33,048 nucleotides of DNA from Parcubacteria bacterium C7867-002 (lineage in GTDB: Bacteria; Patescibacteriota; Minisyncoccia; Phycocordibacterales; PALSA-1337): NCBI GenBank assembly GCA_001189105.1, contig LFCL01000004.1, forward strand, positions 1 through 33,048, read 5' to 3'. Each line of letters begins with the position of its first letter. The first letter of the stretch is position 1. Below, piece by piece: positions 49 to 31,786 of this stretch. Position numbers and translations under genes: made by a program. The notes beneath the pieces were generated by a model. The model searched no databases. It had not been told where the DNA came from and was given only the letters and a program-made list of their open reading frames with translations.

Positions 49-525
49 TTACCTTATTTGCATTTTATTGGGGGTCAGCCCTGCCATGTGCTCAATCTCC
101 AAATCCTTGAGGATTTCAAGTACTTGATTGAGATCAGAAAATCCACGAAATCCGCTTACACGTGAAAAAAGGATGTTCAAATTGGCATCAGTATACATCT
201 CATCAAGCAGCGCCCATGTGGAACGAAGATCGTGAATAGCGTTTTTTGTTTTCTTGAACCCAAATTCATCAACCAAATCATACAAAGGTCGTTCGAACCG
301 AGCAATTGCCTGCCCCGCATTGTGCCCTGTAGCCCCGTGAGCCAGTTTCCCCTGTTCAAATATGGTTACCCGGTGCTTCGTATACTTCAAAATGAAGAAC
401 GCTGTTGAAATACCTGCGATTCCTGCGCCAATAATCGCAATATCCGTATCAAGATCAGTTCCTAGAGGAACAGGTTTTCTCGTATGATCAAGCTGATGAA
501 TCCAGGGCGATTTATTTATCTTCAT
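49..525 (-). CDS. FAD-dependent oxidoreductase (DAO family), N-terminal part, prematurely terminated
   Basis: Rossmann motif DIAIIGAGIAGISTAFFILK followed by E (TIFEQG) and HGATGHNAGQ; only 158 aa for a family usually over 350 aa. Same frame stays open after the TAA to the window edge (QLTSVSKIYSSVDDIP). Confidence 0.75.
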   Translation of the reverse strand: MKINKSPWIHQLDHTRKPVPLGTDLDTDIAIIGAGIAGISTAFFILKYTKHRVTIFEQGKLAHGATGHNAGQAIARFERPLYDLVDEFGFKKTKNAIHDLRSTWALLDEMYTDANLNILFSRVSGFRGFSDLNQVLEILKDLEIEHMAGLTPNKMQIR

Positions 526-682: not shown

Positions 683-1063
683 TTATAAAATAAGATCTCG
701 AATCCAGCGTACACGAGCCCGTCTCGCCGTAAGGTCTTTAAAGACGCACAGAACATGGAAACTGAATTCTTGACCTATACCCTTCCCTTTTTCTTCCAAG
801 TAGGTCTCGACCATACGTCGAATATTACGAATCTTCAAACCATGCACATTCTCCTCTGGCCTATAGGTTTCATCAAGCAAATCAATAGATTTAACAATAA
901 TACTTTTAACCTCAAAGAAATGGAGCTGAGTATCCTTTTCCGCAATAATATCTATTTCACCCCATTTCTTCTGATAATTACGCTCGACCAACCTAAATCC
1001 CTCTTTTTCTAAAAATTGAGCAGCGATGTTTTCCCCAACTTTTCCTTTAGTTCGTGTGTCCAT
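683..1063 (-). CDS. yraN: YraN family protein (UPF0102, endonuclease-like)
   Basis: GKVGENIAAQFLEKEGFRLVERNYQKKWGEIDIIAEKD...FFEVK signature. Confidence 0.9.
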   Translation of the reverse strand: MDTRTKGKVGENIAAQFLEKEGFRLVERNYQKKWGEIDIIAEKDTQLHFFEVKSIIVKSIDLLDETYRPEENVHGLKIRNIRRMVETYLEEKGKGIGQEFSFHVLCVFKDLTARRARVRWIRDLIL

Positions 1064-1100: not shown

Positions 1101-1130
1101 ACTTTCACGTGAAATGTTTCATGTGAAAGC
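1101..1130. promoter_or_regulatory. Tandem parS-like palindromes
   Basis: TTTCACGTGAAA (1103-1114) and TTTCATGTGAAA (1117-1128); compare Bacillus parS TGTTTCACGTGAAACA. Confidence 0.6.
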
Positions 1131-1882: not shown

Positions 1883-3370
1883 ATGAAAATGGCCGAAAAA
1901 AGCCCTATTCCAGTAGAAGTTACTCGTGTGGTTGAGGCTTTGGAAAGTGCTGGCTTTCAAGCGTATTTGGTTGGCGGATGTGTCCGTGACCTGCTTTTTG
2001 GACGTAAACCAAAGGATTGGGACGTTACCACCAACGCAAAACCTGAGCAAATCCAAGGATTATTCACAAAGACAGTCTATGAAAACATCTATGGCACAGT
2101 TGCCGTTATCAATGAAGAAACAGCCGATGACACCTTAAAAAACATCGAAGTAACGCCATATCGCCTTGAATCTAGTTATTCAGACCGCAGACATCCAGAC
2201 CACGTTACATTCAGTGAAACAATTGCTGATGATCTTCAGAGACGTGACTTTACCATTAACGCTATCGCCATTAGCTTATCAAATGGTGCCATAAAGGACG
2301 TTATTGACCTTTACGAAGGTTTCAAGGACTTAGATACGCGTTCTATAAGGACAGTAGGGAAACCAGAGGATCGGTTTAATGAGGATGCGTTGCGCATGAT
2401 GCGAGCGGTCCGTCTTTCGGTAGAACTTGGTTTTACCATTGAAAAACATACACTTTCTGCCATATCTACCCTCAACGACCACATAAAAGACATCTCTATC
2501 GAGCGTATTCGTGACGAATTTAGCAAGATTCTGATGTCAAAAAACCCGAAACAAGGTATAGAGATGTTGCATTCTCTCGGTCTTTTGAAACATTTTATTC
2601 CGGAATTAGAAAAGGGTATTGGTGTAGAACAGACTCAAGCCCATAAATACGACGTATGGGAACACCTTTTACGTAGCTTACAACACGCTGCCGACAAAGA
2701 TTGGTCATTGGACATTCGATTAGCCGCGCTTTTCCACGATATAGCCAAACCACAGACACGAGAGTTTTCACGTGCAACAAATCAGTACACATTCTATGGG
2801 CATGATGTTATTGGTTCACGTGAAACACGTAAAATACTCGATAGAATGAAGTTTTCACGTGCAACTATCGATAAAGTGTCTAAATTGGTTCGTTGGCACA
2901 TGTTTTTCTCAGATACTGAGCAAATAACGATTTCCGCCGTACGCAGAATGATTGTTAACGTTGGCCAAGAAAATATCTGGGATCTTATGAATGTGCGTAT
3001 TTGTGATCGTATAGGTACCGGTAGACCCAAAGAAAACCCTTATAGATTGAGAAAATACCAAGCAATGCTCGAAGAAGCGATGCGGGACCCTATTTCTCTC
3101 CATATGCTCAAAATTGATGGTAAAAAAATAATGGAAGTGTGTAACATTCCTGCTGGCCCAAAGATTGGAGCTATTTTACATGCCGTATTCAATGAAATCC
3201 TTGAAAATCCGCTCCTAAATACCTCTGAACACCTAGAACAGCGAGCAAAGGAGCTTGCTATGCTGCCAGAAAAAGAATTAAAGGCATTGGGAGAAGCAGG
3301 GGAACTAAAAAAACGGGAAGAAGATAAAAAAGACGTTGAAGAAATAAGAAAAAAATATAATGTCTCTTAG
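1883..3370 (+). CDS. cca: CCA tRNA nucleotidyltransferase (poly(A) polymerase family, with HD domain)
   Basis: YLVGGCVRDLLFGRKPKDWDVTTNA, RRDFTINAIA, HKYDVWEHLLRSL, ALFHDIAKP. Confidence 0.95.
   Translation: MKMAEKSPIPVEVTRVVEALESAGFQAYLVGGCVRDLLFGRKPKDWDVTTNAKPEQIQGLFTKTVYENIYGTVAVINEETADDTLKNIEVTPYRLESSYSDRRHPDHVTFSETIADDLQRRDFTINAIAISLSNGAIKDVIDLYEGFKDLDTRSIRTVGKPEDRFNEDALRMMRAVRLSVELGFTIEKHTLSAISTLNDHIKDISIERIRDEFSKILMSKNPKQGIEMLHSLGLLKHFIPELEKGIGVEQTQAHKYDVWEHLLRSLQHAADKDWSLDIRLAALFHDIAKPQTREFSRATNQYTFYGHDVIGSRETRKILDRMKFSRATIDKVSKLVRWHMFFSDTEQITISAVRRMIVNVGQENIWDLMNVRICDRIGTGRPKENPYRLRKYQAMLEEAMRDPISLHMLKIDGKKIMEVCNIPAGPKIGAILHAVFNEILENPLLNTSEHLEQRAKELAMLPEKELKALGEAGELKKREEDKKDVEEIRKKYNVS
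2764..2866. promoter_or_regulatory. Cluster of three parS-like sites inside cca
   Basis: GTTTTCACGTGCAACA (2764-2779), TGGTTCACGTGAAACA (2812-2827, 15/16 to Bacillus parS), GTTTTCACGTGCAACT (2851-2866). Confidence 0.65.
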
Positions 3371-4659: not shown

Positions 4660-5385
4660 TTATTCCTGATTTTTCTTGCCGTGAAACTTCTGGTGGACCC
4701 GTTTAAGCTCATTATCAGTAATATGCGTATAGATTTGAGTCGTACTTATGTTTGCGTGTCCTAAAAGCATTTGTACGGAGCGTAGATCGGCTCCATTCGA
4801 GAGAAGGTCTGTCGCGAAACAGTGCCGAATAACGTGAGGAGTCACTTTTTTAGAAATTCCTGCCTTTACCGCACATTGTTTCACAATTCGCTCGATCGAA
4901 CGACGAGTAAGACCTGAATCTGGGCCCTTATTCTCCTTGCCATCCATTTTTATAAATAAGGCATCTTCGGCATCGGTACGCTTATCAAGGTACTTTTTTA
5001 TAATCTTTTTGGCATTTTCGGAGAGAAAAACTACGCGGACCTTGTCACCCTTACCACGGATCGAAAATTCATCGGCCCGAATATCGATATCCCTCGTCAG
5101 GGAACACAGCTCGGAAACACGTAAACCAGTCATGTAGTAATTCTGGGTCTTTTTCTTGAGAGTATTACCTGTTGCACGGTTATTTCCGGTAACTTGCCGG
5201 TTGAGCCACAGACGAAATTCACGAATGACCGTCTCTGAAATATCGCTTGCTTGCTTGATTTTTGATTGTTCTATGAAGCGACTAAGGTAATGATCATAGT
5301 TTTCAACGGTTTTCACGGCACGACCTTTTTCGATTTCGATATATTCCAGAAATTGCTGCTTTAAGGAGTTGATATTGTGCGACAT
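4660..5385 (-). CDS. Tyrosine recombinase XerC/XerD family, with apparent internal deletion
   Basis: TGLRVSELCSL, HVIRHCFATDLLSNGADLRSVQMLLGHANISTTQIYTH; only 241 aa, direct join KKKTQNYY|MTGLRVSEL. Confidence 0.93.
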   Translation of the reverse strand: MSHNINSLKQQFLEYIEIEKGRAVKTVENYDHYLSRFIEQSKIKQASDISETVIREFRLWLNRQVTGNNRATGNTLKKKTQNYYMTGLRVSELCSLTRDIDIRADEFSIRGKGDKVRVVFLSENAKKIIKKYLDKRTDAEDALFIKMDGKENKGPDSGLTRRSIERIVKQCAVKAGISKKVTPHVIRHCFATDLLSNGADLRSVQMLLGHANISTTQIYTHITDNELKRVHQKFHGKKNQE

Positions 5386-13836: not shown

Positions 13837-13920
13837 TATTCAAACTCGTACACTCTATAACTCATGCCTTCTTCTTCAAAAAAGTTTCTCAGTATGTTCT
13901 GTATGGTAAGATACATTCCT

Positions 13921-14574
13921 ATGACTGCACTCAATGATGCTCAACAACGTGCAGTGGAAACCACCGAAGGTCCGGTCCTGATTATCGCTGGAGCAGGGGC
14001 GGGTAAGACTCGAGTCATCACTCATCGTATCCTTCACCTCATCAAACAAGGCACAGCTCCTTCATCGATCATTGCTATCACGTTTACCAACAAAGCAGCC
14101 AAAGAGATGCGTGACCGTGTCCATGCACTTCTTGATGGGAATAAGGACCTCAATCGCCCTGTCTCAATGCGAGAGCGACCATTTGTAAGCACCTTCCACT
14201 CTCTCGGTGTTCATATTATTCGCGAAAATGCAGCACTCCTTGGTCTAACTCGACATTTTACGATTGCCGATCGTTCTGATTCACGTCGTGCAATCAAAGA
14301 GGCACTCGAACGTCTGTCATTGGATCCAAAAAGTTTCGATCCGGGCAAAGTCCTCGGAGCAATTTCCCGTGCCAAAGGGGAAGGGCTCACTCGTCTGGCA
14401 TACACTGATCGCGTTTCGAGTTATTTCGAAGAAACTATCGCGTCGATTTGGGACATCTATGATTCTGTGCTAGCAAAAGAAAAAACACTAGAATCGATGA
14501 GTACCAGGATACCAACCGGGTTCAATATCGTATTGCAAAATATCTGGCCGATGAACACAAAAACATTTGCGTAG
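13921..14574 (+). CDS. uvrD: UvrD/PcrA-type SF1 helicase, N-terminal fragment (frame broken)
   Basis: LNDAQQRAVETTEGPVLIIAGAGAGKTRVITHRI, ITFTNKAAKEM, VSTFHSLG; start corrected from 13864 to ATG 13921. Confidence 0.92.
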   Translation: MTALNDAQQRAVETTEGPVLIIAGAGAGKTRVITHRILHLIKQGTAPSSIIAITFTNKAAKEMRDRVHALLDGNKDLNRPVSMRERPFVSTFHSLGVHIIRENAALLGLTRHFTIADRSDSRRAIKEALERLSLDPKSFDPGKVLGAISRAKGEGLTRLAYTDRVSSYFEETIASIWDIYDSVLAKEKTLESMSTRIPTGFNIVLQNIWPMNTKTFA

Positions 14575-15770
14575 TGGGCGATATTGACCAAAATATCTAT
14601 AGCTGGCGAGGCGCAACAATCGAAAATATTTTGAATTTTGAAAAAGATTATCCTGATGCAACAGTTATCACGTTGGAGCAAAATTACCGCTCCACGAAGA
14701 ATATCCTTACTGCTGCTAACGATATTATCGAGAAAAATACGATGCGCCGTAAAAAGACACTGTACACGGACAACGATAGTGGCGAAAAACTCTCACTCCT
14801 CAACAACTATACGGAAAATGATGAGGCACGTGCGATCGCCGATGAAACTCGCATATTGATCCAAAAAGGAACTGACCCTCGCAATATCGCCGTGCTCTAT
14901 CGTACCAATTTCCAATCACGCGCCTTGGAAGAATTTTTTATCAAGAAAAACATTCCGTATCAACTGGTTGGGACACGTTTTTTTGAACGCAAAGAAATTA
15001 AAGACACACTGTCTTACATGAGAGCTGCACTCAATAGGGAAGCTTGGGGAGATATTATGCGCTGTATCAATGTGCCCGCTCGCGGCATTGGAAAAGTGAC
15101 AGTTGCAAAAGTGGTGAATGGCAAACGAGATGAGCTACCTCCGGCAATGCAGGTAAAAATTTCAAGTTTCTGGAAACTCCTCGATGATATTGCTGCGGAA
15201 ATAAAAGAAAAGAAACCTTCGGAGGCAGTAAAATTTGTGTTACACGAAACAGGACTTCAAAATTCTCTGCGCGAAGGAACCAGTGAAGATGAAGAACGGA
15301 TTCTCAACGTTCAAGAACTTGTATCGGTTGCAGCTCAGTACGACCATCTCAGTCCCGAAGAAGGAATCGAGATGTTTTTGACAAACGCAGCACTTGCCAG
15401 CGACCAAGATGATTTGGAAAAAGATCAAAATGCCGTAAAACTAATGACGGTTCATGCTTCGAAAGGACTAGAATTTGATTATGTCTTTATCGCTGGCCTC
15501 GAACAAAACCTATTTCCTTTGAAGCATCTAGATGAAGCACATATTAGTCAAGCCGAAGAAGAGGAGGAGCGTCGTATCTTTTATGTAGCCCTGACTCGTG
15601 CTCGCAAAAAAGTATACCTAAGTTATGCTATGGTACGTACTATATACGGATCACAACGAGTGAACACTGCCTCGGAATTCATTGCCGATATTCAAAAACA
15701 CTTGATTCACGACCATAGTTCAGGAAATTCCGGTCTGACGGGTGCAAAAGCAATTTTCATTGATTTTTAG
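14574..15770 (+). CDS. uvrD: UvrD/PcrA-type SF1 helicase, C-terminal fragment
   Basis: GDIDQNIYSWRGATIENIL, LEQNYRSTKNIL, VKLMTVHASKGLEFDYVFIAGLEQNLFP, RIFYVALTRARKKVYLSY. DEYQDTNRVQYRIAKYLADEHKNICVV lies in this frame upstream of 14574. Confidence 0.92.
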   Translation: MGDIDQNIYSWRGATIENILNFEKDYPDATVITLEQNYRSTKNILTAANDIIEKNTMRRKKTLYTDNDSGEKLSLLNNYTENDEARAIADETRILIQKGTDPRNIAVLYRTNFQSRALEEFFIKKNIPYQLVGTRFFERKEIKDTLSYMRAALNREAWGDIMRCINVPARGIGKVTVAKVVNGKRDELPPAMQVKISSFWKLLDDIAAEIKEKKPSEAVKFVLHETGLQNSLREGTSEDEERILNVQELVSVAAQYDHLSPEEGIEMFLTNAALASDQDDLEKDQNAVKLMTVHASKGLEFDYVFIAGLEQNLFPLKHLDEAHISQAEEEEERRIFYVALTRARKKVYLSYAMVRTIYGSQRVNTASEFIADIQKHLIHDHSSGNSGLTGAKAIFIDF

Positions 15771-16773: not shown

Positions 16774-17670
16774 ATGACTGCTTACCCTCGCACACAAACT
16801 GTTGTAACTTTTATCGTATGTGCGGTAGTGATTATAGGCGTGGCCACCTATGTGTACGGGGGATCTCTGGCTACATTGAGAAGCAAAAAAGGTTCAAGTG
16901 TGGCCGTTATTTCAGCCACATCGACTCCGACGGACCAACTTGTAGAAACCGCAAGCTGGAAGGAAACATTTTTTAATGTAACAGATGCAAACAATAACGA
17001 ATACGAAACTTCATCAGCCACACATGTTTCAACTGGCGCAGAAACAGAAAAAATAACCGCAACCGACATTTTTGGTCGTGAATTCTTTTCAAAATACATG
17101 ACATTGCGTCAAACAGGCATGATTGCAAATTCGGATGCAAAAGATGCCTTGGTTGATCAGATTATAGAAAGCGGACACATGATTACCGATGGTCCCAAAG
17201 TTTATACCTTGGCAGATTTAACCATTTCAGCCGTAGAAGATGATGCGAGTCGTGCAGCATATGCCAATGCAGTCGCACACACAATGTTGTCTCATCAGCC
17301 AGCCGAACATGAAGGAGTAATCGCCAAAGAAGCTTTGGAAACAGGGAACAACGAACGGTTGGCGGACATAGATCCGATCATCGTTGCCTATAGCACAGTT
17401 CGTTCGGACCTCCTTGCCATACCAACACCACTGTCAGCCGCCCAATATCATCTGAACCTGGTAAACGGAATGAGTGAAGCGGTAGCAAACGCTGTTTCAC
17501 TTCGAAATGCCATCACTGATCCGCTTCAGACACTTGCCACCCTTTCTCGATATCAGGCAACCGAGAAAAACGTGTTTGATACCGTAGTAAATTTACGCGC
17601 GTATTTCAATAATTACGGCATCACCTTTAGTCCAGCCGATAGTGCCTACAGTGTCTTCTCCTTAAAATAA
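16774..17670 (+). CDS. Membrane-anchored protein of unknown function, first gene of the T4SS-like cluster
   Basis: N-terminal TM TVVTFIVCAVVIIGVATYVYGG; 2 bp from the next gene. Confidence 0.7.
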   Translation: MTAYPRTQTVVTFIVCAVVIIGVATYVYGGSLATLRSKKGSSVAVISATSTPTDQLVETASWKETFFNVTDANNNEYETSSATHVSTGAETEKITATDIFGREFFSKYMTLRQTGMIANSDAKDALVDQIIESGHMITDGPKVYTLADLTISAVEDDASRAAYANAVAHTMLSHQPAEHEGVIAKEALETGNNERLADIDPIIVAYSTVRSDLLAIPTPLSAAQYHLNLVNGMSEAVANAVSLRNAITDPLQTLATLSRYQATEKNVFDTVVNLRAYFNNYGITFSPADSAYSVFSLK

Positions 17671-17671
17671 T

Positions 17672-19294
17672 ATGAGTTTTTCACTTTCTGCAAAAAAGAT
17701 ACTCTGCTCAATCCTGATGGTAGGCATCATGTTTCCGACTTTTGCACGCATCACTCACGCACAACTTGCAGTTACCGATCCAGTCAATACGGTACAAGGT
17801 GTCCTTCAAGTGATTCAGGGAAGCGCCCAGTCATTCCTACAAAACTCCTTGGTCTATAAGGAATTTGTCATGGACTTGCTTCTCAACCTGGTAGCCAAGC
17901 AACTCATTCGGACAATGACACAGAGTATCGTGAACTGGATCAATTCCGGCTTTAGTGGAAGTCCAGCCTTCCTAACTGATCCAGGTTCATTCTTTTTGGA
18001 TGCTGCAGACCAAATCACCGGTGCCATGCTTGATCAAGATGGTCCATTGGCCTCACTGTGTACGCCATTCAGCTTTGATATACGTCTTTCCTTGGCTCTC
18101 CAGGTTTCAAGTCGTGCACACCAACGCTACACGTGTACCCTGGGTACAATTATCCAAAATACTCGTGATGCTGCCGCACGAGGTGTGACTATCAATGGAT
18201 TTATGGCTGGTGACTTTTCCCAGGGTGGATGGCCTGCATTCCTTGCTCTCTCTACCGAACCTCAAAACAACTATTCAAGTGCATCGCTCTATGCCTACAG
18301 CGATCTGTTGTCACGAATTGCCAAGAAGGAAGCTGCTATCAACGTTGACCTCAACCGCGGCCGAGGATTTATGTCATGGACAAAATGTGAAGACGTAACA
18401 GGATCAATTGGAGCAGGAGGAACACTCACTAGTCCTCAGCAAGATGCTCAACTCAATCAACCAGGCAATCAAACTGTCCAAACAGGTAAAGCTGAAGATA
18501 GGGAAGATACCAGTATCAAGAAAACCACAGACAAAACAACAGGTCTTGTAAAATACGAACGCTGCAAAACAGAAACTCCAGGTTCTATTATTGAAAATAC
18601 TCTCAGTAATCAACTTGGCTCTGGCGTACGTCAACTTGAACTTGCAGATGAAATAAATGAAATCGCTGGAGCCTTGGTCAATCAACTCGTCACTGCGATT
18701 CTTACGACTGGTCTCAATGCAGTCAGTGGCAGTTCGAGTGGGGGACCATCGACGGTCAGCAAAATTTTGGGTGAAGGCACTCAATCTGTCGCCCAAGTAC
18801 AAAAACTGGGCAAACAATTGGCAAACGACCTCAAACCATATCTCACTCGTGACCAAGATGTCGTGGAAAATTATCAAAAAGCTGTTGTTGCTGCCCAGGG
18901 TGCCCAGGAAAAGTTTGTCGCGGTGCGCGCATGCTGGATCCAGAAAAACGTTCCTTCACAAGCTGCACAAATTGATGCCGCAATTGCAGCAAAAGTAACT
19001 CCGTTGCTCAGCGCTGTCACAACCAAACTCCAAGAAGCCTCAACGACGATGGAAACATTGCTCGCAATTCAACAGATCGCCCTGACCGCAACTACCACAG
19101 CACAACTCCAACCAGCATCCGAGGCTTTCTCCGATCTGCTTCGCCAACAAGCACTCCAAAGTGTCTCCGATCTCCAAGAATCAAAGGATGCCCTCAAGGA
19201 TACACGCCGCGATGCAAGCAAACTCGAAGATGAGGCTGCGGCACTCATGAAAGCGTGTCAGGCATACAGCTCCTCGTCCACATCAACACCATGA
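17672..19294 (+). CDS. Secreted/periplasmic protein of the T4SS-like cluster, unknown function
   Basis: Signal peptide MSFSLSAKKILCSILMVGIMFPTFARITHAQ, long helical region. Confidence 0.7.
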   Translation: MSFSLSAKKILCSILMVGIMFPTFARITHAQLAVTDPVNTVQGVLQVIQGSAQSFLQNSLVYKEFVMDLLLNLVAKQLIRTMTQSIVNWINSGFSGSPAFLTDPGSFFLDAADQITGAMLDQDGPLASLCTPFSFDIRLSLALQVSSRAHQRYTCTLGTIIQNTRDAAARGVTINGFMAGDFSQGGWPAFLALSTEPQNNYSSASLYAYSDLLSRIAKKEAAINVDLNRGRGFMSWTKCEDVTGSIGAGGTLTSPQQDAQLNQPGNQTVQTGKAEDREDTSIKKTTDKTTGLVKYERCKTETPGSIIENTLSNQLGSGVRQLELADEINEIAGALVNQLVTAILTTGLNAVSGSSSGGPSTVSKILGEGTQSVAQVQKLGKQLANDLKPYLTRDQDVVENYQKAVVAAQGAQEKFVAVRACWIQKNVPSQAAQIDAAIAAKVTPLLSAVTTKLQEASTTMETLLAIQQIALTATTTAQLQPASEAFSDLLRQQALQSVSDLQESKDALKDTRRDASKLEDEAAALMKACQAYSSSSTSTP

Positions 19295-21435
19295 AGAAAT
19301 TCTCCTTAAAACTTCCAACACTCTGCTTGGCCATTTTCGGAACATGGTTTCTGGGAACACAGCTGGCTCACGCTGAGATAGTTACAAGTCTTCTTGGTTT
19401 TGAAGGTCTTTCGGTGATAATTGCTCAGGTCCTGGCTAATGTATTAAATACGTTCCAGATGATTGCTGCCTGGATATTGGCCATGGCTGGCTTCCTGTTG
19501 AACTATTCCATCAACCTAACCCTCCAGATGAAGACGTTCCTGGAACAGACACCGGCAATCTATACTACTTGGAAAGCGCTCCGAGATATTAGCGGCTTGT
19601 TCATCATCTTTTTCCTCTTGTATGCTGCAATAAAACTCATTCTGAGTATTCAAGATGCAAAATTTGGTAGCCTGATCAAGAACATCGTGGTTGCAGGGGT
19701 ACTTATTAACTTTAGTTTCTTCTTTGCCAGTCTTGGAATAGATGTGTCGAACATTGTTTCGATTCAACTCTACAATGCCATTGCACCCGCCAATACCCTC
19801 AATGTAGGTAATTTGAGTCCTACTGGAGTAACCGAACGTATTGGCGACGGAGGATTATCCGATGTCTTTATGAAATCACTCAAAATTCCTGCACTCTACG
19901 ATACCAACGCAAAACTTACTCCCGCCGGACAAGTAGCAGCGGCAGGTGGAGCATGGACGGCTCCTATCAAGATTATTCTCATGGGTAGCGCATCGATCAT
20001 TATCATGTTAGCAGCTGCATTGAGTTTTGCCGCTGCTGCTTTTGCGTTTATTATTCGGTTCGTAGTACTCATATTCCTTCTGGCATTTTCACCAATCTGG
20101 TTTGCTTCACATATCGTTCCGGAAATAGGGGATTATGCAAAAAAATGGACCAATGCATATAAAGGTATGTTGATATTCATGCCTGCATACTTACTCCTCA
20201 TGTATTTGGCCTTAAATGTACTCACGACGAGTCCATTCCTCGGAGGTACTGACATTGCCAATGCTGCAGCAAGTGTTGGCACAGGTAGCACGGTATGGTA
20301 TTCCAGCATCCTAACGCTTTCCATCAACGCAGTCATTGTCATGATACTCCTCAACTTTCCACTGGTCGCTGCCATCAGTATCGGTGGGGGAACAGTTAAA
20401 TTCGCCAACGCCACCGTTCAAGGAGCTTCACGATGGGTACGCAATAACACCGTTGGTGCAGCGAGTACTCGTATTATCGGAGGAGCAGCAAATTATATTG
20501 ATAAAAAGGTTGGTGGAACACGAATTGGAAACACTCTCATTGCCCGAGATATTAGAGGTGCAACAACTGGTGCACTAGCTAAAAATAAGTTTGGTACTGG
20601 TCGCTCATATGAGGATTTGAATAAGATAAATAAAGATATAAAGACAAAAGACAAAGAAATTGGCCGTATTGCACTTGTTAACACATTGATAAAAAAGAAC
20701 GCTCCATTAAAGGAAGTAGCTGCCGCCGTTAAAGATATGGGTGATAAAGAAAAACTCGCCCTTGGAGCAGAGACACTTGCCGATCCACGAGTAGCAGCTC
20801 AATTAAAGGGTTCTGATTTTGAAGCAATCAAGAAATCTGATGACTTTAGTGACGAAGAAAAGAAGGCTGTCTCTGATGCACGAACACGTGCACTTGAAGA
20901 TGCTGTTAAGGCTAGTGAAGCTGGCGATGCAACTACCCTTAACCATATGATAGGGAATATGGACGGTAAAGATCTCCTAAAATTTGCAGAAAAGAAGGCT
21001 GATATACTTACAAATGCCAACTTTGTTCTGCATCTCAAGCAATCACAACTGAAAACTATGGATGATGAAGGTTTAGATATAGATACCAAAAAGAAAATTG
21101 CTGAAACAATTCTTAAGACCAGTCCTCCTCATAAATCGGTTGGATTTATTAAGAAAAACAAAGCTTCTTGGGGTGTAGAGGAAGAAGCAAAAAAAGATGA
21201 GAAGAAACAACCCCAAGTTATAGCTGCCGTGGGCGGAACATCTAAACCTGAACCTGAGGCCATATTTATTCCTCAATTAAAGAAAACTGAGTCATCACCT
21301 ATATTTATTCCTCCATCTTCACCGAACCCTCCTAAGTTCAGTAAGACCTACGCGGCTGAAAGTAACTTAGGCATAGGAAAAAAACCACCCATTATTATTC
21401 CTCCTCAAAATCCTCCTAAATTTGGTAATAATTAA
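19291..21435 (+). CDS. VirB6/TrbL-like polytopic membrane protein
   Basis: Signal peptide, several TM helices, long charged C-terminal tail; ATG overlaps the upstream TGA (ATGA). Confidence 0.75.
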   Translation: MKKFSLKLPTLCLAIFGTWFLGTQLAHAEIVTSLLGFEGLSVIIAQVLANVLNTFQMIAAWILAMAGFLLNYSINLTLQMKTFLEQTPAIYTTWKALRDISGLFIIFFLLYAAIKLILSIQDAKFGSLIKNIVVAGVLINFSFFFASLGIDVSNIVSIQLYNAIAPANTLNVGNLSPTGVTERIGDGGLSDVFMKSLKIPALYDTNAKLTPAGQVAAAGGAWTAPIKIILMGSASIIIMLAAALSFAAAAFAFIIRFVVLIFLLAFSPIWFASHIVPEIGDYAKKWTNAYKGMLIFMPAYLLLMYLALNVLTTSPFLGGTDIANAAASVGTGSTVWYSSILTLSINAVIVMILLNFPLVAAISIGGGTVKFANATVQGASRWVRNNTVGAASTRIIGGAANYIDKKVGGTRIGNTLIARDIRGATTGALAKNKFGTGRSYEDLNKINKDIKTKDKEIGRIALVNTLIKKNAPLKEVAAAVKDMGDKEKLALGAETLADPRVAAQLKGSDFEAIKKSDDFSDEEKKAVSDARTRALEDAVKASEAGDATTLNHMIGNMDGKDLLKFAEKKADILTNANFVLHLKQSQLKTMDDEGLDIDTKKKIAETILKTSPPHKSVGFIKKNKASWGVEEEAKKDEKKQPQVIAAVGGTSKPEPEAIFIPQLKKTESSPIFIPPSSPNPPKFSKTYAAESNLGIGKKPPIIIPPQNPPKFGNN

Positions 21436-21447
21436 TCAGATAAACAC

Positions 21448-21987
21448 ATGGAAAATATACCTAAACAATTCAAAGATTTGGCTGAGTCAGCAGAACTCTA
21501 CGATCAATCAGAAAAGGTTGGTGAGAAGTTTGGCCTGATGATCGATCAGATAGGGGAGCTTGATGCAGAAATAAGAGGAGTCCTCTTGGGTCTTTTCAAG
21601 CCTGCAGATTTTCCTCAGCATCTTGTAGAGCGTCTTGAAATCAAATCTGATGTCGCACAAAAAATCACCGAAGAAGTAAACAAGGAAATCTTCCAGGTAA
21701 TCAAAGCCAAACTCCAAGCCGAAACACCTCCTGAAAACATTCATTCCGACCTCGAAAAGGTTGGGGGATTCACCATAGAAGAAGAGAGCGCGCCGTTACA
21801 CCACCCAGAACCTCAACCTCATACAGAACCACTGGTAGACCATCTGCTTTCCAAGCCCACCTATGTTCCTCAGGAAAAAGTTCAGGTCACTCCTGCTGCT
21901 CCCACCACTCTTGTTACCCCTGTAAAACCTGCGGAGCCGGTGAAAAAACCGACCGGACCAGATCTCTACAGGGAACCAATAGAATAA
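21448..21987 (+). CDS. Conserved hypothetical protein of the T4SS-like cluster
   Basis: Helical N-terminus, Pro-rich C-terminus, operon position. Confidence 0.6.
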   Translation: MENIPKQFKDLAESAELYDQSEKVGEKFGLMIDQIGELDAEIRGVLLGLFKPADFPQHLVERLEIKSDVAQKITEEVNKEIFQVIKAKLQAETPPENIHSDLEKVGGFTIEEESAPLHHPEPQPHTEPLVDHLLSKPTYVPQEKVQVTPAAPTTLVTPVKPAEPVKKPTGPDLYREPIE

Positions 21988-22015
21988 CCAGGGGGTGTGA
22001 TGTATAATATGAGTG

Positions 22016-22450
22016 ATGCGTTTTCAAGTTCCTCAATTTATCGAAGTCGAAGATAAGATCTTTGGCCCGCTCACCCTCAAACAGTTTATTTACCTGGCTG
22101 GTGGTGGGGGATTGTCATTCCTGGTATACATCTTCCTCAAAAATTTTGTTCTGGCATTTATTCCTATCGCTCTCATTCTTACCATTTCCAGTGCACTGGC
22201 TTTCTACAAGCTCAACAACAGACCTTTCATAACCATCGCCGAAGCAGCTTTCAAATATTACACCAATGCCAAACTCTATATTTGGAAGAAACAAGACAAG
22301 GTCAAACCTGCGGACACGCGCACGGCACTCAACGATGTCAAGACCTATGCCTCGGTGATGGTTCCAAAAATTTCAGATAGTAAGCTCAAGGATATGACCT
22401 GGAGTTTGGATATTAAGGAAAGTTTATATTCAGACCGCAACCAAAAATAA
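22016..22450 (+). CDS. PrgI family protein
   Basis: MRFQVPQFIEVEDKIFGPLTLKQFIYLAGGGGLSFLVYIFL. Confidence 0.88.
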   Translation: MRFQVPQFIEVEDKIFGPLTLKQFIYLAGGGGLSFLVYIFLKNFVLAFIPIALILTISSALAFYKLNNRPFITIAEAAFKYYTNAKLYIWKKQDKVKPADTRTALNDVKTYASVMVPKISDSKLKDMTWSLDIKESLYSDRNQK

Positions 22451-22451
22451 C

Positions 22452-23093
22452 ATGGCCCAAAAAACCCAATCAACTCAAGACTTTGTTCCTATCCAGGAAA
22501 TCCGTGATGGTGTCATTACCCTCAAAAACGGGGGAATGCGCGCCATTATTCTGGCATCATCATTGAACTTTGCCCTCAAATCATCCGACGAGCAAAATTC
22601 CATCATGCTACAGTTCCAAAACTTCCTGAACTCCCTCGATTTTTCAATTCAAATATTCGTCCAATCAAAAAAGCTCGATATTCGACCTTATATCGCACTT
22701 CTTGAAGGTCAGTACAAAGACCAACTCACTGAACTCATGAAAGTCCAGGTACGCGAATATATCGAATTCATCAAAACATTCGTCGAAAACACAAATATCA
22801 TGTCAAAAAGTTTCTTCGTGGTAATCCCTTATGATCCACCACTCCTTACTGCCAGCAAGAATCCATTAATGAATGCTTTGCCTGGTAGAAAAAGTGGAGT
22901 AAAGGACACAGGAACAGCCGATGAAAAATTCCAAGAATACAGAAGCCAGCTCGAACAACGTGTATCAGTTGTGGAACAAGGACTGGTCCGTTGTGGAGTA
23001 CGCACTGCAGAACTCGGAACCGAAGAAGTGGTAGAATTGTTCTATAAGATCTTCAATCCAGGAGAAACAGAGAAGCCAATCCAAATAACATAA
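22452..23093 (+). CDS. TraC/VirB4 N-terminal-domain-like protein
   Basis: DFVPIQEIRDGVITLKNGGMRAIILASSLNFALKSSDEQNSIMLQFQNFLNSLDFSIQIFVQSKKLD; directly upstream of the VirB4 ATPase. Confidence 0.78.
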   Translation: MAQKTQSTQDFVPIQEIRDGVITLKNGGMRAIILASSLNFALKSSDEQNSIMLQFQNFLNSLDFSIQIFVQSKKLDIRPYIALLEGQYKDQLTELMKVQVREYIEFIKTFVENTNIMSKSFFVVIPYDPPLLTASKNPLMNALPGRKSGVKDTGTADEKFQEYRSQLEQRVSVVEQGLVRCGVRTAELGTEEVVELFYKIFNPGETEKPIQIT

Positions 23094-23094
23094 T

Positions 23095-24906
23095 ATGTCT
23101 ATATTCTCCAAATTACTCGGCAAAAAAGATTCTGCACCGGTCATCTCTGTACTCCCAGAGGAGATATATCAGGCTGGTGTCCTGGAACTCAAAGATGTTA
23201 TTGCTCCTTCTGCACTCAAGGTGACTTCCAAAGATCTCAACTTGGGAGAAAAAGTTGGTCGCACACTCTTCGTCATCTCATATCCTCGCTTCCTCGATGA
23301 AAGTTGGTTTGCTCCCATCATCAACCTCGACAAAGTATTCAACGTTTCCATATTCGTACACCCGATCGACACCGCCAAAATCCTCCGTCATTTCCAAAAG
23401 AAAGTAGCCGAAATCCAAAGTCAAGTCTCCCGCAGGGAACAGAAAGGCTTGGTTCGTGATCCTGCACTCGATACCGCCTACCAAGATCTCGAAGCACTTC
23501 GTGACCAACTGATGCAAGCCCAGGAGCACCTATTCGATGTTGGTGTATATATCACTCTTTTTGCTGACAATGAAAGTGAGCTCGATAAACTGGAATCAGA
23601 AATCAAGTCAATTCTTGAATCAAAACTTGTGTACGTAAAACCTGCACTCTTCCAACAAGAACAAGGTTTTAAGAGTGTTATGCCGATAGGGGACGATCAG
23701 CTGGCCGTGCATTCGAAACTCAACTCTTCACCTCTTTCCAGTCTTTTTCCTTTTGTATCCTTCGACCTGACTTCAGACAAAGGTATTTTGTACGGCATCA
23801 ATCGTCACAACTCTTCATTAGTATTGTTTGACCGATTCCTCCTTGGTAACTACAACTCGGTAACCTTTGCCGTAGCCGGAGCAGGTAAGTCCTATTGTAC
23901 CAAGCTCGAAATCCTGCGAACCCTGATGTTCGATACCGATGTTATCGTGATCGATCCGGAAAAAGAATACGAATACATGGCCGAAGCAACGGGAGGAAAG
24001 TATTTCAATATTTCCCTGAACTCCGAGCACCATATCAACCCATTTGATCTACCAATCCCTCGTGAAGACGAGTCTGCAGCTGATATTCTCCGTTCGAACA
24101 CCATCAACCTGGTTGGTCTATTCCGCATCATGCTAGGAGGATTGTCTCAAGAAGAGGACTCAATCATCGACCGCGCTATCAGTGAAACCTATGCACTGAA
24201 GGATATTACACCAGAATCTGATTTCAGAAATGTAGAGCCGCCACTTTTATCCGACTTTGAACTTGTATTGGCTGGTATGGAAGGAGCAGAATCACTCGTT
24301 GAACGATTAGCAAAGTATACAAAGGGAACATGGTCAGGATTCATCAACCGTCCATCAAACGTCGATATCAATAAAAAATTCGTAGTCTTTTCTCTCCGTG
24401 ACATGGAAGATGAGCTCAAACCAGTAGCGATGTATATCGTCACACACTATATATGGAATGCGGTGCGCAAGAACCTCAAAAAGAGACTGCTGGTTATCGA
24501 TGAGGCATGGTGGATGATGAAATCAGAAGATACGGCTTCATTCTTGTTTAGTTTGGCAAAAAGAGGACGTAAATATTTCCTTGGTTTAATGACCATCACC
24601 CAAGACGTAGGGGACTTCCTCAATTCTCCGTATGGTTTGCCGATTGTAACCAACTCCTCGATCCAGATTTTGCTCAAACAATCTCCAGCGGTTATCGACA
24701 GTATCCAAAAGACATTCAACCTAACCGATGAAGAAAAATACTTACTCCTTGAATCAGATGTAGGAGAGGGCATGTTCTTCGTAGGACTCAAACACGTAGC
24801 CATCAAAATCGTGGCTTCATATACCGAAGATCAGATCATTACGACAAATCCAGCTCAGGTGATGCAGATTCAACAGGCCAAGAAGGAATTGGAGCAGGTA
24901 GGGTAG
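23095..24906 (+). CDS. VirB4/TraC-family T4SS ATPase
   Basis: Walker A AVAGAGKSYCTKLEILR, VIDPEKEYEYMAEATGGKYFNIS, HHINPFDLP, Walker B KRLLVIDEAWWMM. Confidence 0.95.
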   Translation: MSIFSKLLGKKDSAPVISVLPEEIYQAGVLELKDVIAPSALKVTSKDLNLGEKVGRTLFVISYPRFLDESWFAPIINLDKVFNVSIFVHPIDTAKILRHFQKKVAEIQSQVSRREQKGLVRDPALDTAYQDLEALRDQLMQAQEHLFDVGVYITLFADNESELDKLESEIKSILESKLVYVKPALFQQEQGFKSVMPIGDDQLAVHSKLNSSPLSSLFPFVSFDLTSDKGILYGINRHNSSLVLFDRFLLGNYNSVTFAVAGAGKSYCTKLEILRTLMFDTDVIVIDPEKEYEYMAEATGGKYFNISLNSEHHINPFDLPIPREDESAADILRSNTINLVGLFRIMLGGLSQEEDSIIDRAISETYALKDITPESDFRNVEPPLLSDFELVLAGMEGAESLVERLAKYTKGTWSGFINRPSNVDINKKFVVFSLRDMEDELKPVAMYIVTHYIWNAVRKNLKKRLLVIDEAWWMMKSEDTASFLFSLAKRGRKYFLGLMTITQDVGDFLNSPYGLPIVTNSSIQILLKQSPAVIDSIQKTFNLTDEEKYLLLESDVGEGMFFVGLKHVAIKIVASYTEDQIITTNPAQVMQIQQAKKELEQVG

Positions 24907-24947
24907 GAACACTCGCCCTTTCGTGCAGAGTGATATACTATACCCCA

Positions 24948-25439
24948 ATGAACTCATCCTCCAAAAAAGTCGGTATCTTGGGTATGTGCATCCTCATGTT
25001 CATTGCCCTTGTAGTTGATTTACTCACCCTCATACCTCTTGTGGGTGATATTATGGGTCCCCTCTACTGGATAGCATTGGCCGTATTCCTGTGGTTTAAA
25101 GGATTTGGCTTTTTGAATTTCAAACGTGCTGCACCTATGATTATTTCCGTGGTAGGGGAGCTTATTCCAGCAATTCAAGCGTTACCAACCATTCTTGCTG
25201 GTACAATCGCACTTATTTTTGTTCTTAAAGTACAAGAAAAGACCGGCCTATCACTCAACACCCTTACCAGCGGCAAGGTAAACCTGGCTAAAAACGGGGC
25301 TGGTTTCGATCGTCTTGGAAATTCGACCCTCAATTACAATGGTGTACGCCAACCAAGTGCTCCGCAAACGCCCGAAGAAGTTCGCAACACCAACAATCGT
25401 CCATTGGTCGTAGACGGTGTACGTGCTCCACAGAAGTAG
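24948..25439 (+). CDS. Small membrane protein of the T4SS-like cluster
   Basis: Hydrophobic helices; ATG 24948 preferred over the GTG at 24930 because a -10 TATACT sits 8 nt upstream. Confidence 0.65.
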   Translation: MNSSSKKVGILGMCILMFIALVVDLLTLIPLVGDIMGPLYWIALAVFLWFKGFGFLNFKRAAPMIISVVGELIPAIQALPTILAGTIALIFVLKVQEKTGLSLNTLTSGKVNLAKNGAGFDRLGNSTLNYNGVRQPSAPQTPEEVRNTNNRPLVVDGVRAPQK

Positions 25440-25475
25440 CACAGGGGATAAAGCACGCTGTGGTACAATATACGC

Positions 25476-26504
25476 ATGTTGAGCAAGCTTGCTTCCTATA
25501 TTTTTTTGATACTTACCGTAGTTATACTTGCTGCTTCCTCTGTATCAGCACAAGGTGTTTCTGTTACTCCAGGTCTCGAACTTTCTCCTTCCACCAGCAG
25601 TCCCGTGCCTGGACAATCTTTGACTATCACTGCTCGTAGTTACACCGAGGACGCAAGTTCCGCAACGATTATCTGGTACGTCGATAGTAAAGAAGTAAAA
25701 AGGGGAGTAGGGGCTACAACACTCGAAATCAAAGCCCCTGTTCTTGGTAAACGAAACGTCATTAGTGCACGAGCGATCATCCCTCAAGGAGGTGAAGTGA
25801 GTGGTGAAATTACTCTCGGATCAGGATCTGTTGATTTGATTGTAGAATCAGATGGATATGTTCCGCCTCTTTTTACAGGAAAAATAAGTCCTTCATTTCA
25901 AAATAATGTGAAAATTATCGCCATCCCTCATCTCGCCAACGCAGCAGGAGTTGAATATGATTCAAAAACACTCATATACGAGTGGCAACGCAACGACATG
26001 GCGATCGAAGGGCAGTCCGGATATGGCAAGCGTTCAATAATTATCGAAGGTGCTCCTGTGCCACGTCCATATACCATAAGTGTGACAGTGCGATCGCGTG
26101 ACGGTCTCTCCGTCACAAAAGGATACATCACCATATCTCCTCAAGTTCCCACGCTTTCGTTTTACGTAGACGATCCTTTGTACGGACCACTTTTCAATAA
26201 AGCAGTGGGGAGTCAACTCAATCTCGGTACCCAACGCGAAAGTTCTGTATTGGTAGTCCCGTTTGGTTTTAACAAACCACAAAATGGGGCAGGGAACCTA
26301 TCCTATGAGTGGACAATAAATGGGTCCCTGCGTTCCGATCTGCTCACCAACCAATCCATCATCCTTCGTGCACCGGACGAATCTGCAGGATCATCACGTA
26401 TCGGACTTACGATCAAAAACAATCGTGATATCCTCCAAGGTGCTCTCGGAGGATTTACCGTGGTATTCTCTGCACCGGCCGAAGAGTCATCCGTATCATT
26501 TTAA
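25476..26504 (+). CDS. Secreted protein of the T4SS-like cluster, beta-rich, unknown function
   Basis: Signal peptide MLSKLASYIFLILTVVILAASSVSAQ. Confidence 0.65.
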   Translation: MLSKLASYIFLILTVVILAASSVSAQGVSVTPGLELSPSTSSPVPGQSLTITARSYTEDASSATIIWYVDSKEVKRGVGATTLEIKAPVLGKRNVISARAIIPQGGEVSGEITLGSGSVDLIVESDGYVPPLFTGKISPSFQNNVKIIAIPHLANAAGVEYDSKTLIYEWQRNDMAIEGQSGYGKRSIIIEGAPVPRPYTISVTVRSRDGLSVTKGYITISPQVPTLSFYVDDPLYGPLFNKAVGSQLNLGTQRESSVLVVPFGFNKPQNGAGNLSYEWTINGSLRSDLLTNQSIILRAPDESAGSSRIGLTIKNNRDILQGALGGFTVVFSAPAEESSVSF

Positions 26505-26509
26505 ATTGT

Positions 26510-27697
26510 ATGAAAAAAATACTTATCATCTCATTCATAATACTCACCGCCACATTGCCGGTATATGCTCAAAGTGGAGGAGGGAGTAACACAAGCAACC
26601 CGACAAACAACCGATTGCCGACCTATACTTTGCTCGAACCTCTTCCATGTATCCCAAATGCAACACCGGCCGCTGACGATCCGTGTACCAAAGCTGGTGA
26701 AATCCAAACTAAACTGAATTTCAAATATTATGTTCAGTATATGTTCAACCTGCTCATTGCAGTTGCAGCAGTTGCATCTGTATTCATGATTGTATATGGA
26801 GGCTTTCAATATATGAGTACTGACTCATGGCAAGGGAAGAGTGATGGTTTGAGTAAAGTTAAGAACGCATTACTTGGACTCCTCTTGGTTCTGACCTCCT
26901 ATATTATCCTCCGCACCATCGACCCTCGACTCGTAGCCATACCAACCACACTAGTCCCGCCGTTGAATATACAGTATGAGAGTGTTGGCTCAGGTTTACT
27001 TGGTCAATTACAAAAAGAAGTTGATTCATTTAGTACGAGCAATCTTGCAGCCAAGGCCAAAGTAGCCGAAGCTTTGAAAAAAAATGAGGAACGTCAGGCT
27101 CGTATAGCTGAACTCAAGGAACAACGTGAAGAGCTTGTGGGCACATTTGGAATGGGGGCCGATGAATCAGATCCAGAGGTCCAAAGTATTGATGCAAAGA
27201 TTGCTGCATATCAGAATGAAATGATCAGAGAGACAGCATCTGCATATCTTATGACAGACAAGGTTGTGCTTGATGCGGAAATATACAAATTCGGCCCTTC
27301 ATCAGGAACAAAGACTCTGAATTGGGCAGGTGCTGCACAACAAATTGAGACTGTGTATATCAAACGCTATACCACTTTAAAACAAGCCGGGGCAGAACCT
27401 GATCAACTACAAGAACTCACTCGATATAAAGATTATGCAAAGTTGGCCGTAGAAATAAATCATATCGTAGCAAAAGTAGTGCAAGAAAAATTGGATTATG
27501 ATAACTCTATCACCCCAATCCAGACTGACAGTAATGCAAACGCTCGAATAGCTGTTTTACGAACCGATGCAAATAGTGCTATTGCTGATATTGCCAGACT
27601 CCGTATTTTTACTAATCCCGACCCAGTGATCAAATCCCTCCTTCTTAAGCATGTATCCGAGGCGCAAGACTTCCTAGAAACCATAAAAATAGAATAA
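26510..27697 (+). CDS. VirB2/TrbC-like pilin domain protein with long coiled C-terminal region
   Basis: Signal peptide and FMIVYGGFQYMSTDSWQGKSDGLSKVKNALLGLLLVLTSYIIL. Confidence 0.7.
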   Translation: MKKILIISFIILTATLPVYAQSGGGSNTSNPTNNRLPTYTLLEPLPCIPNATPAADDPCTKAGEIQTKLNFKYYVQYMFNLLIAVAAVASVFMIVYGGFQYMSTDSWQGKSDGLSKVKNALLGLLLVLTSYIILRTIDPRLVAIPTTLVPPLNIQYESVGSGLLGQLQKEVDSFSTSNLAAKAKVAEALKKNEERQARIAELKEQREELVGTFGMGADESDPEVQSIDAKIAAYQNEMIRETASAYLMTDKVVLDAEIYKFGPSSGTKTLNWAGAAQQIETVYIKRYTTLKQAGAEPDQLQELTRYKDYAKLAVEINHIVAKVVQEKLDYDNSITPIQTDSNANARIAVLRTDANSAIADIARLRIFTNPDPVIKSLLLKHVSEAQDFLETIKIE

Positions 27698-27701
27698 TCA
27701 C

Positions 27702-28994
27702 ATGCCTTCAAACAAAAAAAATGTGTTTCTCATTGTCCTTCTCGTAATCGCCTTAGTGGGCGCAGGTTTTGCTTATTGGTATTTCATGTTTAATACCACT
27801 CCAACTTCCACAGGAACAGTAAACTCCGGTATATTCGGATTTCAACCGTTTGGTAGAACTCCAACAGGGAACAACACTGTTCCTCAAAACAATACCGTCG
27901 AACCAGGTTCAAATTCTAGTTCAACTCCTGCAGTGGTTGTAATTCCAACCTTACGACTCCTCAGCAATGCACCTGTAGGAGGATATGGTGCCAGTACGAC
28001 ACCGAACAAAACGGTTGTGCGTTGGATTGATAGGGGACGAGGAAATGTATCTGAAATCAGCAGCAACACGTTGAACACAACCCTTATTTCCAATACTTTG
28101 GTCCCTCGATCATATACAAGTGTCTGGAATAAAAATCTCACCTCATTCATCAGCTCTCTTCTCGAAGACGGAACCCGAGGCGCGACAACACTGTATGCAA
28201 GTCTTCAATCAAGACCGAAATCAACACTCTCTTCTACAACCCCCTCCAACACCCTTACTCCTTATGAACTCAAAGGTAGACCGCTTCCTGAAAACATGAT
28301 TACCTATGCAGCTTCACCACGCAAAGATTCTCTCTTTATGCTTATCAATGAAAATAACACTGGTGTAGGTTATGTCTCAACCTTTGACGGTGCCGGACTC
28401 ACTCGCATCTTCGACACTCCTTCTACTCAACTAACTGCAGAATGGCCTGAGGAAAATACTATTGCAATTACAACCAAACCGACGTTTGATCAGGGGGGAT
28501 TTCTTTATTTTGTAAATCCAAAAACAGGTGTATGGAAAAAGGTTCTTGGTCCGGTCAACGGACTCAGCACTCGTGTTAGTAGGGATGCTAAATACATTCT
28601 TGCCTCATTTTCAAGTTCAACAGGAGGTCTTGTAACAAGTTTCTACACCATCGGTTCAGGAACAACCAGTGACCCGAGTATTCAAACATTGGCAGAAAAA
28701 TGCGTCTGGGGAAATTTCTACAAACAAATGGTTTATTGTGCTGTGCCAACACAGATCCCAAGCGCACTGTATCCTGATGATTGGAACAAAGGAAAGATCT
28801 CTTTCAGCGACAAAATATGGCAGGTCAACGTGCTCACCGGAGAAGTGACCCTTATTACCTCTTTGGCAGACAAGGCGGATCGAATTATCGACGCCACCAA
28901 CCTCCAAATCGACGATCGTGACGACTTCCTCTTCTTTATGAATAAGACTGATTTGTCTCTTTGGTCGCTCGATCTTGTAGCGAATACGAACTAA
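27702..28994 (+). CDS. Membrane-anchored extracytoplasmic protein of unknown function
   Basis: N-terminal TM VFLIVLLVIALVGAGFAYWYF, Ser/Thr/Asn-rich linker, globular domain. Confidence 0.65.
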   Translation: MPSNKKNVFLIVLLVIALVGAGFAYWYFMFNTTPTSTGTVNSGIFGFQPFGRTPTGNNTVPQNNTVEPGSNSSSTPAVVVIPTLRLLSNAPVGGYGASTTPNKTVVRWIDRGRGNVSEISSNTLNTTLISNTLVPRSYTSVWNKNLTSFISSLLEDGTRGATTLYASLQSRPKSTLSSTTPSNTLTPYELKGRPLPENMITYAASPRKDSLFMLINENNTGVGYVSTFDGAGLTRIFDTPSTQLTAEWPEENTIAITTKPTFDQGGFLYFVNPKTGVWKKVLGPVNGLSTRVSRDAKYILASFSSSTGGLVTSFYTIGSGTTSDPSIQTLAEKCVWGNFYKQMVYCAVPTQIPSALYPDDWNKGKISFSDKIWQVNVLTGEVTLITSLADKADRIIDATNLQIDDRDDFLFFMNKTDLSLWSLDLVANTN

Positions 28995-30150: not shown

Positions 30151-30285
30151 TTAAACAGCTAAACGCTTGCGACCTTTAGCACGACGACGAGCGATCGCCT
30201 TGCGACCAGGAGTGGTTTTCATGCGCACACGAAAACCATGACTCTTCGCTCGCTTGCGCTTTTTTGGTTGGTACGTGACTGACAT
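30151..30285 (-). CDS. rpmH: 50S ribosomal protein L34 (missing from ORF track)
   Basis: [44 protein letters not shown]. Confidence 0.97.
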
Positions 30286-30436
30286 GTATAGAATATTACA
30301 TTATTTGCCCCAAAAGGCAAGATTACAACAAAAAGAATGGTCAACGCACCTATCCCCAACTTATCAACATATTTTAAAGTACTCCACAAGTTTGCAGAAC
30401 TATAAACAGGTATATACTTATAGGAAATTTCCACCC

Positions 30437-31786
30437 ATGCACGACTATTCTAAAATGTGGCAAACAGCTCTCGTTGAAATCGAAACTGCTGTATCGCAAG
30501 CAAACTTTTCGACATGGTTCAAAGAGACGCGCATCATTCGAGAAGAGGAGGGAGTTGTATATCTCGGTGTACCAAATTCATTCACTCAGGAATGGTTAGT
30601 AAAAAAGTTCCATAATTCCATATTACGAATTCTGCGCCAAGCAAACGAACAAGTTCGAGCTCTCGAATATGTCATCGAGAAGGAAAGTGGTTCAAAAAGC
30701 GACAGTTCCCGCAACAAAAAGCCGGCCATGATGCCAACAATGGCTATGCCGTTGCAGGATTTCTATATAAACAAAGAAGACAACCTCAATCCTCGCTATA
30801 CCTTCGAAAATTTTGTTGTTGGACCATTCAATGAGCTTGCTCACGCGGCCTCCCAGACTGTCCTCAAAGGTCCTGGGCAGACATATAACCCACTCCTGGT
30901 GTATGGAGGGCCAGGTCGAGGTAAAACTCACCTCATCCAAGCGATCGGCAACCAGATCAAAGTCGCGTTTCCAAACAAAAAGGTGTTTTATCTTACCTCT
31001 GAACGGTTTGGTTCCGAATTTCTCAGCGCCCTCCAAGAAGGGAAAGCTCAAGCGTTTAAAGAAAAATACCGTAAATACGACGTGGTTATTATGGACGATG
31101 TACAATTCTTCTCAAGTAAGGAGAAATTCCAAGAGGAGTTCTTCCATTTGTTTAATACCTTCAAAGACACCGGCCGTCAGCTTATTTTCTCGTCTGATAA
31201 GCATCCAAATGTTATTCCTGGCCTCGAGGAGCGTGTTCGTAGTCGTTTCAATGCGGGAATGTCGGTCGATATTCCAGAACCAGACCAAGAATCCCGCATG
31301 GCTATCGTACGAACCAAATGTGCGATTCACAACATAACCCTTTCTCCAGAGCTTATGGAGTTTTTGGCATCCACTATCAAGGATAATATCCGTGAGATCG
31401 AGGGTGTAGTTAATATTGTGGCGTGTCAGACCCAACTCAAAAACAGGGAATTAAACATCAACGAAATCAAGAATATCCTCAAAAACAACACTCGTCCCAA
31501 AAAGATGATGTCTGTAAAAGAAGTAGTTAAGATTGTTTCAGACTTTTATAACATCGACGAGGAAAGTATATACAATAAGACTCGTCGTAAAGAAATAGTA
31601 CGTCCACGTCAAATGGTTATGTACCTCTTACGTGAGGACTTTGGCATATCTTTTCCTTCAATTGGGGAAAAGTTGGGGGGAAGAGATCATACAACCGTTA
31701 TTCATTCTTATGAGAAAGTTAAAACTGAGTTGAAAAATGATACTATCCTTGCCCAGGAAGTCACTGAGCTTCGATCGATGATTTAA
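30437..31786 (+). CDS. dnaA: Chromosomal replication initiator protein DnaA
   Basis: MHDYSKMWQTALVEIETAVSQANFSTWFKET, PLLVYGGPGRGKTHLIQAIGNQI, VVIMDDVQFF, RPRQMVMYLLRED, GGRDHTTVIHSYEKV; start moved from 30254. Confidence 0.96.
   Translation: MHDYSKMWQTALVEIETAVSQANFSTWFKETRIIREEEGVVYLGVPNSFTQEWLVKKFHNSILRILRQANEQVRALEYVIEKESGSKSDSSRNKKPAMMPTMAMPLQDFYINKEDNLNPRYTFENFVVGPFNELAHAASQTVLKGPGQTYNPLLVYGGPGRGKTHLIQAIGNQIKVAFPNKKVFYLTSERFGSEFLSALQEGKAQAFKEKYRKYDVVIMDDVQFFSSKEKFQEEFFHLFNTFKDTGRQLIFSSDKHPNVIPGLEERVRSRFNAGMSVDIPEPDQESRMAIVRTKCAIHNITLSPELMEFLASTIKDNIREIEGVVNIVACQTQLKNRELNINEIKNILKNNTRPKKMMSVKEVVKIVSDFYNIDEESIYNKTRRKEIVRPRQMVMYLLREDFGISFPSIGEKLGGRDHTTVIHSYEKVKTELKNDTILAQEVTELRSMI

Follow-up and report, generated by a model that had tools for sequence, protein, structure and literature searches.

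A very probable ParB-type centromere embedded in the tRNA nucleotidyltransferase gene cca of a Parcubacteria lineage

The window analysed here is the whole 33,048-nucleotide stretch of contig LFCL01000004.1 from Parcubacteria bacterium C7867-002. Three of its genes are central to the analysis:

683-1063, minus strand: YraN-like gene adjoining cca, recognised by reading the sequence
1883-3370, plus strand: cca, CCA-adding tRNA nucleotidyltransferase of 495 aa (PF01743, PF12627, PF01966, PF13735)
30254-31786, plus strand: dnaA, a marker of the origin region (PF00308, PF08299, PF11638)

The product of cca includes the PolyA_pol head, RNA-binding and HD domains. The NCBIfam models for CCA tRNA nucleotidyltransferases were its best matches, with scores under their cut-offs, and the closest cca genes among named relatives are those of Candidatus Taylorbacteria, Zambryskibacteria and other Parcubacteria. 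Elsewhere in the window, a XerC/XerD-like recombinase recognised by eye (4660-5385) is seemingly short between its N-terminal and catalytic parts, and a UvrD/PcrA-like helicase (13864-15770) is split over two adjoining open reading frames (ORFs) in different frames, which points to a frameshift or sequencing error. A block including PrgI- and VirB4-like ORFs (16774-28994), which by eye is similar to an operon for type IV secretion or a pilus, stands between the parS region described below and dnaA.

The original prediction placed three parS-like sites inside cca. The 16-mers at 2764, 2812 and 2851 match the parS sequence TGTTTCACGTGAAACA at 13, 15 and 12 of 16 positions, respectively, exactly as predicted in sequence, coordinates and match counts, and all three lie in cca, which is one intact ORF. 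The three sites therefore stand, but the extent given for the cluster does not, as sites at 1101 and 1115, and perhaps one at 154, also belong to it:

154-169, plus strand: possible weak parS-like site, GCTTACACGTGAAAAA; matrix score 10.6
1101-1116, plus strand: parS-like site with a perfect 12-base core, TTTCACGTGAAA; -782 relative to the cca start; matrix score 11.9
1115-1130, plus strand: parS-like site 5' of cca, TGTTTCATGTGAAAGC; 3 mismatches; -768 relative to the cca start
2764-2779, plus strand: parS-like site 1, GTTTTCACGTGCAACA; 3 mismatches; encodes F-S-R-A-T; cca offset 881
2812-2827, plus strand: parS site 2 (core site), TGGTTCACGTGAAACA; 1 mismatch; encodes G-S-R-E-T; cca offset 929
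2851-2866, plus strand: weak parS-like site 3, GTTTTCACGTGCAACT; 4 mismatches; encodes F-S-R-A-T; cca offset 968

In the window, three 16-mers (1115, 2764 and 2812) match TGTTTCACGTGAAACA with no more than three mismatches; shuffling gave an expectation of 0.22, and none of 100 shuffled windows reached three. Using a weight matrix trained on hand-picked sites from other families only, the six top-scoring 16-mers of the 33-kb window were those at 2812, 1115, 2764, 1101, 2851 and 154, all within its first 2.9 kb. A matrix score below about 13 is by itself reachable by chance (40 simulated windows gave a median best score of 8.4 and a best of 20.9), and sites 1 and 3 are weak when taken alone; the clustering of low-scoring sites is a stronger argument than single matrix scores.

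A pattern search of the 631,749-base assembly agreed with the predicted concentration of matches at this locus, as the core site at 2812 was the sole match with at most one mismatch, and such matches were not scattered in same-genus genomes either. One other match, with two mismatches, was found on contig C21, where the surrounding genes read by eye (polymerase III alpha, RNase HII, IF-2 and a cysteine desulfurase-like gene) gave no hint of a second cluster. The assembly is 89.7% complete, and additional sites may be absent from it.

The linkage of the sites to cca extends well beyond this genome. By hand count over the 16 genomes of the genus that have a full cca, the interval from -805 to +1491 relative to the cca start holds every one of the 17 sites with at most one mismatch and 34 of the 40 with at most two. 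The reversed control gave three matches in these genomes. All matrix sites in 9-kb stretches around cca from 19 genomes fell between -805 and +1514 of the cca start, with several relatives having sites at about -570 to -805. Across the order, 26 of the 30 members for which both site and cca positions were listed have a site with at most one mismatch no further than 4 kb from cca, and in nine of them it lies inside cca. No site with so few mismatches was present in 129 of 197 order members (about two thirds), which suggests that the consensus may be looser, or the centromere located elsewhere, in these genomes. In relatives, the same palindrome was also seen at other positions and in other frames of cca, in intergenic DNA, and in ORFs homologous to the YraN-like gene (L205, L206, L207, L219 and L222). 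In genome G047, five perfect parS sites spaced 53-63 bp apart lie just 5' of a YraN-like ORF (contig C15, L196:5980-6218). Sites in G224 and G223, which are at contig ends or in another ORF, were left uninterpreted.

Seven same-genus assemblies that include no cca had no site with at most two mismatches anywhere. Natural loss of parS in these relatives was considered and set aside, since three of the seven (G007, G009 and G020) also include no dnaA, and the contig carrying the origin is probably absent from those assemblies.

The position of the sites near the origin is also shared. The original prediction put the cluster about 28 kb from dnaA, and with dnaA starting at 30254 the two are indeed separated by about 27-28 kb in the window. 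The distance is 28-35 kb in this genome and in G001, G003, G015, G018, G021, G022, G025 and G026, 46-49 kb in G038 and G028, and 4 kb in G037. In G025, a single-contig genome of 981,549 bases, 32 kb lie between dnaA and the cca sites.

A ParB is encoded by the same genome (G000:C6:22118-22417; PF02195, E 3e-27), and a ParB_N domain was found in this genome and in 36 of 40 genomes. The ParB includes a GERRLRA CTP box, and the solved chains aligning best with it are those of Spo0J/ParB. When the residue numbers of the positions that define parS versus Noc binding (PMC7383237) were applied to it, Arg and Gly were found at the equivalents of R173 and G201, with a GKSR motif and the G in GHTR, as in RxxG ParBs. 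ScpA is likewise present in this genome, and was found in 37 of 40. On the same contig, near parB and miaA, an ORF at L094:9796-10395 reads by eye like a LAGLIDADG-type homing endonuclease.

Of the two partners whose presence elsewhere in the genome bore on the original prediction, ParB was thus recovered, with parS-type residues and a CTP box, but a canonical ParA was not, as PF13614 was absent from this genome (89.7% complete) and from 30 of 40. A weak CbiA match was considered as a hidden ParA and set aside, as it lies in a long ORF whose start reads like CTP synthase. ORFs of 341-362 aa for a ParA-like ATPase were seen in only a few same-genus genomes (G010, G017 and G011; L145, L146 and L147). 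A complete ParABS system includes a ParA ATPase partner; as the canonical one is apparently missing, the system seems to combine ParB-parS with SMC and to fall short of full ParABS. Four features of chromosomal parS sites, namely a palindrome with few mismatches, clustering near the origin, maintenance of the bases and a cognate ParB, are found here.

The palindrome might instead be the operator of another regulator, or ParB might act mainly as a local regulator of cca and its neighbours. The sites lying 500-1200 bp 5' of cca in some relatives are consistent with this, as is the case of Pseudomonas aeruginosa, where ParB represses genes beside the intergenic parS3 and parS4 (PMC7022226). However, the sequence is that of the conserved bacterial parS, the genome encodes a ParB with matching specificity residues, and the sites occur not only upstream but also mid-gene and downstream, which is not the pattern of an operator, and they lie close to the origin. 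Both forms of this reading are very improbable.

It is very improbable that the sites in cca represent no more than a lesser or decaying outlier, with the main parS cluster lying in the missing part of the genome or having a diverged consensus. The incompleteness of the assembly, the weakness of sites 1 and 3 and the two-mismatch site on contig C21 would fit such an arrangement, but in same-genus genomes that are 97-100% complete (G018, G006, G017, G003 and G022) the strongest sites are still found only at cca, and the core site is strictly maintained in the genus.

This maintenance was assessed in a codon alignment of cca from 29 genomes, of which the same-genus subset comprised the 16 genomes with a full cca. 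The codons GGT TCA CGT GAA ACA at 2813-2827 are present at the same place in 16 of 16 same-genus genes, the exceptions being one ACG and one TGT, in proteins that are only about 70% identical. No other five-codon window in these genes has a higher third-position identity (0.99; gene mean 0.57, standard deviation 0.10), and windows covering sites 1 and 3 rank within the top dozen. Among 124 conserved four- or six-fold degenerate codons, five are fixed as to the codon used, and all five are inside the sites. The chance of this is about 4e-9 if codons are exchangeable, a figure that is only a guide given the relatedness of the genes. Outside the sites, only 19% of serines are encoded by TCA and 32% of arginines by CGT. 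At the position of site 3, TTT TCA CGT is retained in 14 of the 16 genes, and at that of site 1 there is just a single mismatch in G011, G019 and G022. Hence, the excess conservation at synonymous positions that a centromere within cca would call for is observed, and is extreme at the sites.

Two of the reading frames of the parS palindrome in cca give (V/F/G)SRET and xHVKx, and the third includes TGA. A set of 52 cca genes from the order, four of which were added for having sites while the others were not so chosen, includes 112 sites with at most three mismatches. The SRET frame accounts for 90 of these, the HVK frame for 13 and the TGA frame for nine. None of these nine contains TGA, having TGT, TGC or other sense codons instead. 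As a stop would end the ORF in any case, the point is that a site is kept there at all, with one base changed.

The residues of the enzyme differ between carriers and other families. Where the core position is without parS, the families compared mostly have GA(R/K)(I/V/M/L)(T/A), whereas GSRET is found in the same-genus genes (one has GSCET) and also in G156 and L104; G198, G090 and G026 have GSRVT with TGGTTCACGTGTAACA. At cca offset 546, site carriers have FTCN, versus FTIE or FTIN in most others. The most extreme case is the 603-aa cca product of G109, from another family (contig C5, L195:1402-3210), the gene for which includes eleven in-frame sites in one frame, eight perfect and three with one or two mismatches, mostly as VSRET peptides and partly in insertions. 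Two insertions are not in the other cca proteins compared, one being a run of (N/D)VSRET units, and all four enzyme domains are still detectable. The 609-aa cca product of G086 (contig C9, L221) carries a different insertion, with VSRET and VTREP units, in the same head-domain loop. Apparently, parS drove the peptide insertions in these two proteins. As read from sequence, the double duty of this DNA appears to have visibly shaped the enzyme across relatives, adding peptide repeats in one. That a Ser-Arg-x-Thr repeat of the enzyme merely happens to spell parS, through chance and ordinary protein constraint, would account for the three window sites sharing a reading frame and all encoding S-R-x-T, but can be dismissed as extremely unlikely, as the codons are frozen and not the residues alone, families without sites mostly have GAR(I/V/M/L)T at the core position, the palindrome recurs in other cca positions and frames, YraN-like ORFs and intergenic DNA, and the reversed control gave no site in the 52 genes.

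On the sequence evidence, it is thus highly likely that this Patescibacteria lineage has its chromosomal parS centromere here, in a cluster mostly embedded in cca. The same reading, a centromere embedded in a tRNA-maturation gene of a reduced-genome bacterium, was that of the original prediction, and it is supported by the linkage, the ParB and the codon conservation. ParB dimers would bind the 16-bp palindromes, strongly at 2812 and more weakly at 2764, 2851, 1101 and 1115. Once bound, the dimers would form closed, CTP-dependent clamps that slide onto neighbouring DNA. By loading SMC-ScpAB close to the replication origin, they would allow sister origins to separate, with ParA seemingly no participant. 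Because the sites are part of a coding sequence, selection would act jointly on what the DNA specifies for ParB and on what it encodes for the enzyme: the sites would be held mostly in the two stop-free frames, or with a stop-avoiding base change, and the enzyme would tolerate Ser-Arg-Glu-Thr where relatives without sites mostly have Ala-Arg-hydrophobic-Thr. A further and improbable idea is that cca is kept as a dual-code gene because its two roles are coupled: ParB spreading from the in-gene centromere might tune the transcription of cca and neighbouring tRNA genes with origin replication, linking tRNA maturation to segregation in Patescibacteria without ParA.

A literature search, with subscription papers mostly outside it, gave nothing joining ParB-parS with Patescibacteria or parS with tRNA nucleotidyltransferase; mentions of Candidate Phyla Radiation together with ParB were on other subjects, as judged by title. 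As no literature joining ParB-parS with Patescibacteria was found, the sites offer a testable centromere map for a large, mostly uncultured bacterial branch. They also provide a clean case of overlapping codes, in which a structural DNA element appears to have fixed codons, chosen residues and dodged a stop codon, and ParB-SMC without ParA in many families poses the question of how origins are segregated in small cells.

Among known systems, nucleoid occlusion by Noc is related, Noc being paralogous to ParB and its palindromic site (NBS) akin to parS. However, in the ParB found here the two specificity positions are R and G, as for parS binding, instead of the Q and R of Noc, the sites read as parS, and the Noc profile TIGR04285 matches this ParB below its cut-off (201 versus 315 bits). 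Streptococcus pneumoniae and Staphylococcus aureus have ParB-parS and SMC without ParA, according to a review (PMC7333895), so that a ParB-parS-SMC system of this kind is known in principle. S. pneumoniae is alike in having no ParA homologue, but it belongs to a distant phylum, and the review passages on it describe no in-gene array in a tRNA enzyme.

The closest likeness is to parS of Bacillus subtilis (ParB/Spo0J, Soj and SMC), with its 16-bp palindrome, several sites near the origin, a ParB with a CTP box, and ScpA. In B. subtilis, too, a parS lies within a gene (spo0J). Here, by comparison, the clustering is in cca, where sites recur in many families and change the enzyme sequence, and a canonical ParA was not found. 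The locus is very probably a ParB-type centromere in which the DNA and protein codes overlap to an unusual depth; parS itself is of a known kind, and what appears new is an array that recurs inside a gene and shapes the enzyme it encodes, seemingly with no ParA involved.
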